Shown here: one piece after another, positions 59,759 through 62,070 of the stretch
How the letters are laid out: each line of letters begins with the position of its first letter
How positions within the stretch are numbered: position 1 is the first letter of the stretch
Assembly: GCF_000179915.2 (NCBI RefSeq)
Contig: NC_014963.1
Coordinates: 2,604,001 to 2,668,000, forward strand
Direction of reading: 5' to 3'
DNA from: Terriglobus saanensis SP1PR4
GTDB taxonomy: Bacteria; Acidobacteriota; Terriglobia; Terriglobales; Acidobacteriaceae
DNA length: 64,000 nt
The notes under the pieces: generated by a model
The model's input: only the letters and a program-made list of their open reading frames with translations
What the model was told of the DNA's origin: nothing
Databases searched by the model: none
Program-made: the position numbers and the translations under genes

Positions 59759-60826
59759 ATGCACGCCGCGCCTTTAGCCCTCGTCGTCATTACAGTGGTC
59801 ATCGCCCTCGGCTTTGACTTTCTCAACGGTGTCCATGATGCCGCCAACTCCATTGCAACGATCGTCACCACACGTGTGCTCACGCCCACGAAGGCCGTGA
59901 TCTGGGCAGCGAGCTTCAACTTCATCGCCGCCTTCCTCTTCGGCACCGGTGTGGCGCATACGATCAGTTCCACCATCATCGATCCCCGCATCATGAACCT
60001 CTATATTGTGCTGGGTGGCCTGCTGGGTGCGATCACGTGGAACCTCATCACTTGGTATCTTGCCCTTCCCACCTCCAGCTCGCATGCGATTATCTCTGCG
60101 CTTGCCGGAGCGGCCATCGCCAAAGCCGGCTGGCACGCCATCCTGATCAAGGGATGGATCCCGATCCTCGCGTTCCTGCTCCTTTCGCCGCTCATTGGCA
60201 TGGTGCTTGGCTACATCCTCATGCATATCGTGGCGTGGAGCAGCTTCCGGATGCACCGGGACAAGGCATCCAAACTCTTCCGCCGCCTGCAGCTCGTCTC
60301 TGCGGGCGCCTATTCTCTGGGACACGGGACGAACGACGCGCAGAAGACCATGGGCATTATCGTGGCCCTGCTGGTATCCACCGGCTACGGCAACTACGCC
60401 CTCGGTCATACCCGTCTCTTTGGCCGCACGCATGAGATCTCCATCTGGATCATCCTCTCCTGCCACGCCTGCATCGCCGCCGGAACGATGATCGGCGGAT
60501 GGAAGATCGTGCGCACGATGGGATCGCGCATCACGCCACATCTCCGCCCCATCGATGGCTTCGCCTCGGAACTCTCCGCTGCGGTCACCATTGCCCTGGC
60601 CACCTTTGCGAAGGTGCCGATTTCCACGACGCACGCCATCGGCGGAGCCATCTCCGGCGTCGGCGCGACGCGCGGTCTGCATGCCGTCCGCTGGATCTGG
60701 GCCCGCCGCATCATCTACGGTTGGATTCTCACTTTCCCGGGCGCAGGCCTTGTAGGCGCTTTCTTCTACGCAGTCGTTCACTTGGGCATCGAACGCTTCA
60801 TTGGTGGCGGCGCACCGATACACTAG
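59759..60826 (+). CDS. Inorganic phosphate transporter, PiT family
   Basis: Low-affinity phosphate (metal-phosphate) symporter, 355 aa, about 10 helices. Both inverted-repeat PHO4 signatures are present: FDFLNGVHDAANSIATIV near the N-terminus and LGHGTNDAQKTMGIIVALL in the second half. SSSHAIISALAGAA and ISTTHAIGGAISGVGA are the paired re-entrant segments. Encoded with its DUF47 regulator just upstream. The gene ends 38 bases before the first plausible lpxB codon. Confidence 0.94.
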   Translation: MHAAPLALVVITVVIALGFDFLNGVHDAANSIATIVTTRVLTPTKAVIWAASFNFIAAFLFGTGVAHTISSTIIDPRIMNLYIVLGGLLGAITWNLITWYLALPTSSSHAIISALAGAAIAKAGWHAILIKGWIPILAFLLLSPLIGMVLGYILMHIVAWSSFRMHRDKASKLFRRLQLVSAGAYSLGHGTNDAQKTMGIIVALLVSTGYGNYALGHTRLFGRTHEISIWIILSCHACIAAGTMIGGWKIVRTMGSRITPHLRPIDGFASELSAAVTIALATFAKVPISTTHAIGGAISGVGATRGLHAVRWIWARRIIYGWILTFPGAGLVGAFFYAVVHLGIERFIGGGAPIH

Positions 60827-60864
60827 AGTTAGCCTTCGTTCAGACGACCAGCTAAACTACGCAC

Positions 60865-62070
60865 ATCGCTACGAAGCCCAAACCGACGATCTTCCTCTCC
60901 GCAGGCGAAGCCTCCGGAGACCACTACGGCGCTCAACTCATCACCGCGCTCAAGGACGCTCTCCCCGAGGCCGGCTACACAGGCCTCGGCGGCACGGAGA
61001 TGGAGCAGACGGGTCAGCAGCGCACCATACGGGCGGAAGATGTTGCCGTCATGGGCATCACCGAGATCCTCCGCCACATCCCCCACATCTATCGCTCGTA
61101 CCGCCGCCTTGTCGCCGAGATCAAAATCAACAAGCCAGACGTAGCCGTCCTCATCGACTTCCCCGACGTCAACTTCCGTCTCGCCAAACACCTTCATCGC
61201 GCTGGCGTTCCGGTCCTCTGGTTTGTCTCCCCACAACTGTGGGCCTGGAAACGCTCCCGCCTGAGGTGGGTTCAGCAGCGGGTCTCTAAAATGTTCGTAA
61301 TCTTCCCTTTTGAGCAGGAGTTCTATCGCAATCGAGGCGTCGATGCGACCTTCACAGGCCATCCTTTGGCGGATCTGCCGCTGCCCACGGTTACGCGGGA
61401 AGAATATGCGGAACGGAACAGTCTCGATCCAGCAAAGCAGTGGGTGGCGCTTCTCCCCGGATCCCGCTGGAAAGAAGTTCGGGCAAACCTTCCGGCGATG
61501 GTCGAAGCGGCTCAGCAGTATCCGCCGAATGTCGAATTCATTCTCCCCATCGCGGCCACCCTTCAACGATCCGAGTTTGCCGCATACCTTGAATCACTCA
61601 GGACACCTCAAGGTAAAACAAGCTTCACCCTGGTTCATGATGCCCGAGCCGCCTTGCACCATGCCCGCGCTTCGGTTGTGGCCTCAGGAACAGCGACGGT
61701 CCAGGCCGCACTCATCGGCAATCCATTCCTCGTCGTCTACCGCGTCAGCGATCTTACCTTCCGGGTAGCCAAGCGCCTCATCCGATATCCTGCTGAGATC
61801 CCGGCCCCAAAAGACCAGTACGGCAATCTTCCCATCGCGATGCCAAACCTCATCGCCGGCAAACGCATTGTCCCTGAACTCCTTCAGAATCATTCTGATG
61901 CTATCGAAATCAAAAAAATACTTAATCTATTACTTGAAGATTCCCCGGAACGCGCAGCGCAGATAGCTGACCTTGCTTCTCTCCGCAAATTAATGAAACC
62001 TGCCAACAACACCACGGCCATTGGTCAACTCAAAGACGCCGTCCTCCAGGCGCTCGGAATCCGCTCATGA
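60865..62070 (+). CDS. lpxB: Lipid-A-disaccharide synthase with apparently non-canonical (ATC) start
   Basis: GT19 enzyme joining UDP-2,3-diacylglucosamine and lipid X to make the lipid A disaccharide. Family blocks: FLSAGEASGDHYGAQLI at the N-terminus, VLIDFPDVNFRLAKHLH, YVSPQ-type FVSPQLWAWKRSR, FPFEQEFY, TGHPLAD, LLPGSRWKEV, and ASGTATVQAALIGNPFLVVY. The conserved N-terminal block is in frame upstream of the first ATG (61000). Between the in-frame stop TAA 60853 and that block there is no ATG, GTG or TTG. ATC 60865 would give MATKPKPTIFLSAGEASGD, a normal LpxB beginning, so I take it as the start (401 aa). Starting at 61000 would remove 45 residues including the active-site loop. The stop overlaps the next ATG. 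Confidence 0.85.
   Translation: MATKPKPTIFLSAGEASGDHYGAQLITALKDALPEAGYTGLGGTEMEQTGQQRTIRAEDVAVMGITEILRHIPHIYRSYRRLVAEIKINKPDVAVLIDFPDVNFRLAKHLHRAGVPVLWFVSPQLWAWKRSRLRWVQQRVSKMFVIFPFEQEFYRNRGVDATFTGHPLADLPLPTVTREEYAERNSLDPAKQWVALLPGSRWKEVRANLPAMVEAAQQYPPNVEFILPIAATLQRSEFAAYLESLRTPQGKTSFTLVHDARAALHHARASVVASGTATVQAALIGNPFLVVYRVSDLTFRVAKRLIRYPAEIPAPKDQYGNLPIAMPNLIAGKRIVPELLQNHSDAIEIKKILNLLLEDSPERAAQIADLASLRKLMKPANNTTAIGQLKDAVLQALGIRS

Follow-up and report, generated by a model that had tools for sequence, protein, structure and literature searches.

The lpxB gene of Terriglobus saanensis SP1PR4 was confirmed to lack a usual start codon (ATG, GTG or TTG) ahead of the conserved SAGEASGD block of its product, and an ATC codon is present there, at position 60865 of the window (the whole stretch of 64,000 nt that was analysed). 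Comparison of related genomes established that this codon is kept as ATC or ATT (ATY) in 24 of 41 species from two genera, and that it follows a -10-like TANNNT box at a distance of exactly 6 nt in 22 of the 24 (the exceptions are G141 and G146). From this layout we infer that lpxB is expressed from a leaderless mRNA beginning at or near A60865, the AUC of which would be read by the ordinary initiator tRNA; we give this reading a probability of about 0.78.

The 5' end of lpxB in T. saanensis

The host genome consists of a single contig of 5,095,226 bp. The lpxB product matched the Pfam family LpxB (PF02684) with 276 bits over residues 9-371 of 401, the domain thus extending across most of the protein, and it could be aligned with solved LpxB chains from residue 6 on, the SAGEASGD block included. 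It was the sole LpxB match found genome-wide, and lpxC and lpxK were both found in the same genome. Following TAA 60853, the lpxB frame reads ACT ACG CAC ATC GCT ACG AAG (the features are collected in Table 1). The initial annotation had stated that this frame is devoid of usual starts from the TAA to the block, and the sequence and the frames bear this out, the first such codon being ATG 61000; as the TAA is in frame, a start farther upstream in the lpxB frame is barred. The same holds for its statement on the remaining two frames, neither of which contains an ATG, GTG or TTG from the transporter stop (60826) to the block. Its corollary that a frameshift does not help was only partly sustained: starts are indeed missing from that interval, but one of the non-lpxB frames is open from inside the transporter gene, where TTG 60801 and GTG 60804 are found, across the 5' region of lpxB, so that frame reading alone is insufficient to exclude a frameshift.

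The strength of the coding signal above the first usual start was compared among 858 genes called by our own simple gene finder in 1,264,000 bases, or 25% of the genome. By this measure lpxB ranks second, the top rank being held by an ORF without a Pfam family. At the other end of the gene, the TGA of lpxB shares bases with the ATG of the next ORF (ATGA, window 62067-62070), and translation of that ORF may consequently be coupled to that of lpxB.

Table 1. Features of the lpxB region, in positions of the window
Feature	Position	Strand	Remark
Upstream ORF	59759..60826	+	Phosphate transporter according to the initial annotation
TTG and GTG of the overlapping open frame	60801..60806	+	Route needed for a frameshift
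TAAACT, -10-like box	60853..60858	+	Ends 6 nt before the ATC; TANNCT in 41/41 genes of two genera
TAA, in-frame stop	60853..60855	+	Overlaps the -10-like box
Spacer ACGCAC	60859..60864	+	6 nt; same sequence in G129
lpxB coding sequence, ATC to TGA	60865..62070	+	401 codons and stop; lipid-A-disaccharide synthase
ATC, proposed start codon and proposed first mRNA bases	60865..60867	+	ATC/ATT at the homologous codon in 24/41 species
SAGEASGD block	60898..60921	+	Near the N-terminus of LpxB
First in-frame ATG	61000..61002	+	45 codons past the ATC

Conservation of the ATY codon among relatives

An LpxB match was obtained in all 19 Terriglobus genomes, and the 5' end of the gene was readable in 18 of them (all but G128). 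Fifteen of these 18 genes have a usual start within 75 nt, and the relatives with usual starts begin close to the same place, with short N-termini. In the three other members, T. saanensis (ATC), G129 (ATT) and G135 (ATC), the box is followed at 6 nt by an ATY, and usual starts are missing; in both G129 and G135 the TANNCT ends exactly 6 nt before the ATY. G129 is the nearest relative, its LpxB being 90% identical to that of T. saanensis over residues 1-106. The alignment with close relatives that the initial annotation had called for thus returned ATT and ATC at the same place.

In the family as a whole, an LpxB match was found in 115 of the 120 genomes sampled. Outside Terriglobus, 87 loci were read at the 5' end and 84 of them had a recognisable block (L017, L022 and L146 had none); 25 further family genomes with an LpxB match were left out of this reading. 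A usual start was present within 75 nt in 81 of the 84 loci, L126 had only a farther TTG, and two loci had none, L117 (in G064) and L138 (in G042). In L117, TAAACT is followed 6 nt later by ATC. In L138, no in-frame ATG, GTG or TTG occurs for 450 nt upstream of the block, which is as far as the stretch extends, and the combination of box and ATY is absent; the contamination of this assembly is 6%. Another genome, G123, has two lpxB loci with equal scores (L046 and L062), separated by about 460 kb; its assembly consists of one contig and has a contamination of 10%.

G064 pointed to a neighbour genus, for which 28 genomes were available; 23 had an LpxB match, and all 23 5' ends were readable. 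An ATC or ATT was present at the homologous codon in 21 of these 23 genes. The two exceptions have an ATG, at the homologous codon itself in G136 and one codon upstream in G157. The 24 ATY species of both genera comprise 20 with ATC and four with ATT (G129, G147, G159 and G160), G160 having been missed by the motif and included after its sequence was read by eye. Four rows with an ATY were dropped: G120, G121 and G126, where the ATY lies away from the box and usual starts are found upstream, and G127, where an ATC lies 7 nt past the box and a TTG downstream. Since column statistics were taken on rows having an ATY, the full conservation of its A and T there is a matter of construction; the unselected figures for ATY at the homologous place are 21/23 in the neighbour genus and 3/18 in Terriglobus.

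Within the set of 24, 13 species have no usual start from the upstream in-frame stop to the block (G160 as read by eye) and 16 lack one in the 75 nt preceding the block; in G141, G161 and G159 a usual start exists only far upstream. In the other eight species a usual codon is found just downstream of the ATY, ATG at codon 3 in seven and TTG at codon 4 in G140, and in those eight the AUC need therefore not be the start. Residue 2 is small in all 24 species (Ala in 16, Thr in five, Ser in two and Gly in one), and a small second residue fits removal of the first Met. The absence of usual starts, with an ATY at one place, is thus shared by related species, 13 in all. The choice of ATC 60865 as start by the initial annotation gains from this recurrence in 24 species of two genera, and from the ATG that G136 carries at that very codon.

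The history of the ATY codon was examined on an LpxB tree of 66 rows. Its distribution needs four state changes, of which at least three are forced by starred branches, and none of 500 shuffles gave a number as low as four. This fits one gain before the split between Terriglobus and the neighbour genus followed by three losses, so that a single origin of the AUC/AUU start before the two genera split is the simplest account of the sequences; as change counts cannot tell gain from loss, independent gains may account for it as well.

A -10-like box and the layout of a leaderless gene

A TANNCT motif was found in the 70 nt that precede the IFLSAGE codons in all 41 lpxB genes of the two genera, whereas its expectation in the SP1PR4 genome is about 0.08 per 65 nt. 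In T. saanensis the in-frame TAA is itself part of this box; neither this nor the leaderless layout featured in the initial annotation. Between the transporter stop and ATC 60865 neither GGAG nor GAGG occurs, and the gene therefore shows what is expected of a leaderless one, a -10 box at a fixed short distance (TAAACT, 6 nt) and no Shine-Dalgarno sequence. The predicted structure of the first 50 nt, counted from A60865, is weak (-5 kcal/mol), and a fold at least as stable was obtained for 190 of 200 shuffled sequences. A full sigma-70 promoter was not found at 60700-61000, and there is no conserved -35 column among the 41 lpxB genes; the missing -35 lowers confidence in the promoter, although not every promoter needs such an element. 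By itself the spacing is too variable to place the 5' end of the transcript precisely, given that eight of the 15 Terriglobus genes with a nearby usual start have a GTG 8-9 nt after the box. Of the two exceptions to the 6-nt distance, G146 keeps the ATC and has its TANNCT box farther upstream. At the lpxB locus of G141 (L157), there is a TAAACT farther upstream and, 4 nt beyond it, an ATT GCT in the reading frame; a start there would lengthen the N-terminus.

The called starts in the same 25% of the SP1PR4 genome were then used as a reference for this spacing. TANNNT peaked at a distance of exactly 6 nt before the start, where 36 of the 843 starts have it compared to 7.7 expected; these comprise 30/502 ATG, 6/183 GTG and 0/158 TTG starts. 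With the stricter TANNCT, the frequency at 6 nt near gene starts was 18/731 for ATG, 2/664 for GTG or TTG and 4/906 for ATC, ATT or ATA, and 30/16,136 before all remaining codon kinds. This enrichment indicates that the genome has a leaderless class, chiefly with ATG, and the ATC of lpxB lies in its register. For ATC, ATT and ATA, the four occurrences compare with about two expected from the remaining codons, and the only clear one in the sampled quarter of the genome is lpxB. In locus L229, on the minus strand at 2201 (counted on the reverse complement), a TAGACT is followed after 6 nt by ATT GTG ATT, which is a possible leaderless ATT or GTG start.

When the family and the genus were taken together, a TANNNT was present 5-10 nt before an in-frame ATG, GTG, TTG or ATH in 55 of 102 lpxB genes, the commonest layout being GTG at 6 nt (12 genes). 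On the strength of these counts, lpxB is likely to be leaderless, or to have a very short leader, in much of the family.

In the proposed mechanism, a promoter with TAAACT as its -10 box would transcribe lpxB, and the 5' end of the mRNA would be A60865 or no more than two bases from it. Ribosomes would then initiate at the 5'-terminal AUC using the ordinary initiator tRNA, with bases 1 and 2 paired and the third mismatched, and the predicted product would begin fMet-ATKPKPTIFLSAGEASGD. A search of the genome with one anticodon-arm pattern, which we take to be that of initiator tRNA, gave a single copy, with CAT; a special initiator tRNA was rejected on the outcome of this one-pattern search.

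Alternative readings and comparison with known starts

The initial annotation had put forward, as the main alternative, a sequencing error of one base turning ATG into ATC. Any base call can in principle be wrong, but ATC or ATT is found at the same codon in 23 other genomes, which in practice rules the error out and removes it from the place it had been given; moreover, the SP1PR4 genome is a finished one, covered 39x by 454 and 180x by Illumina reads according to its genome report (PMC3570800). It is nearly as improbable that ATG 61000 is the start of a truncated or decayed lpxB. This is the first usual in-frame start, but the conserved N-terminal block lies 5' of it, which makes it an unlikely start as judged from the sequence; its use would cost the protein the SAGEASGD block that aligns with solved LpxB chains. 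The strong coding signal upstream of 61000 speaks against it as well, as does the genome itself, where lpxC and lpxK are present and no second lpxB was found. Equally little probability is given to a translation that begins upstream in another frame, at TTG 60801 or GTG 60804, and then shifts into lpxB. The frame concerned is uninterrupted across this region in SP1PR4, as is its counterpart in G129 and in G135; in G129, however, it contains no start from the transporter stop to the block, and the relatives with usual starts begin close by, with short N-termini. The frameshift thus stays formally open and unsupported.

Two further readings accept the conserved ATY and differ on its role or its context. 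The ATC could be retained merely because the transcript preferably begins with these bases, the start codon being elsewhere, and its retention in seven species that have an ATG two codons later would agree with this. In G146, on the other hand, it is retained despite the TANNCT box being farther upstream, and 13 species offer no usual start at all from the upstream in-frame stop to the block; we regard this reading as quite improbable. More weight, though still well short of an even chance, is given to a start at a nearby non-standard codon, the best being ACG 60871 (codon 3, leaving a 6-nt leader), or to an AUC on a longer, leadered transcript. ACG occupies codon 3 in eight of the 16 species that lack a usual start nearby, ATG does so in the seven further species, and a very short leader is likely in the relatives with GTG 8-9 nt past the box. 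Codon 3 in the other eight of the 16 is GCC, GTC, ACC, ACT (two), ATT, AAG or TCC, whereas ATY is present in 21 of the 23 genes of the neighbour genus (and in all 24 species by definition of the set); this reading is also disfavoured by the lack of GGAG and GAGG from the transporter stop to the ATC. Initiation at the AUC of a leaderless mRNA remains our preferred reading.

The ten genes highest in coding signal above the first usual start were examined with Pfam. The domain extends above that start in three of them, LpxB, IF3 (L225) and a PIN-domain gene (L088); in a peptidase M1 (L214) and a peptidase M29 (L080) domains are found only farther in, and five have no family. The infC gene, seventh in this ranking among the 858 called genes, has in SP1PR4 an ATT start behind GGAGG (L203; L225:11913-12593). 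GGAGG followed by ATT was found in 18 infC loci of the genus, SP1PR4 included (19 were fetched and L205 was left out); nine of the 18 have no usual start between the stop and the block, and in the other nine, which have one somewhere upstream, the ATT call rests on the GGAGG layout. In the PIN-domain gene (L088:16269-16715), the domain is preceded by no ATG, GTG or TTG; its ATT 16269 is found five nt past GGGAGG and shares bases with the TAA of an upstream frame, which suggests an AUU start coupled to an upstream gene. With GGGAGG ahead of its ATT, it counts as a second led AUU case rather than as a second leaderless one. By their layout infC and the PIN gene would be Shine-Dalgarno-led AUU starts, and among the three lpxB alone lacks a Shine-Dalgarno-like sequence and has a box at 6 nt.

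Few non-standard starts have been characterised, the best known being that of infC, which is ATT in E. coli and ATC in Streptomyces (PMC5472188). Like infC, lpxB is a conserved gene with an AUY start; unlike infC, a self-regulated case (PMC5472188) with GGAGG just upstream, it has a leaderless layout, and this sets the two cases apart. Streptomyces sigR, which starts with GTC and is repressed by IF3 (PMC5472188), is like lpxB a non-infC gene that retains a non-standard start, and differs from it in encoding a sigma factor and in its codon; the word 'leaderless' does not occur in the main text of that paper. In bacterial TA-led leaderless genes, TANNNT precedes the start by about 10-12 bp (PMC3160421), in agreement with the box and spacing of lpxB; no AUC- or AUU-led leaderless gene is described in the parts of that article available to us. 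Among titles and abstract openings of the open-licence literature we found no description of an AUC- or AUU-led leaderless lpxB; the relevant terms co-occur in PMC5386190 and PMC11975287.

Leaderless mRNAs of E. coli strongly favour AUG (PMC9031893), and this preference counts, by analogy, against the reading of AUC proposed for lpxB. In some other bacteria GUG works better on leaderless mRNAs, and findings on IF3 diverge, the factor inhibiting some leaderless mRNAs and being required according to one study (PMC9031893). Non-standard starts are repressed by IF3 (PMC5472188), and in vitro less product was obtained with IF3 when the third base was mismatched, as in AUU paired to anticodon CAU (PMC10158994), in view of which AUC should be a weak start. 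That the AUC start of lpxB is sensitive to IF3 would be a guess from these analogies, and it is speculative that a weak start keeps LpxB low, as in the throttled synthesis that the initial annotation had suggested by analogy with infC, or puts it under IF3 control.

For gene annotation, rules restricted to ATG, GTG and TTG would misplace the lpxB start in no fewer than 13 of the 41 species. If the proposed reading is true, lpxB would be a further conserved AUY case after infC, in an envelope gene with an apparently leaderless mRNA. Nature would then have supplied, in the AUC/AUU lpxB genes, a means of testing how a start is chosen by ribosomes when no leader is present. We advance only tentatively, and with some doubt, that this clade of Acidobacteriota may keep a leaderless AUC/AUU lpxB as a setting for lipid A that is either fixed at a low rate or sensitive to IF3 and 70S ribosomes; the ribosomes of these bacteria would in that case accept near-cognate starts at a naked 5' end, contrary to the AUG preference of E. 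coli leaderless mRNAs.
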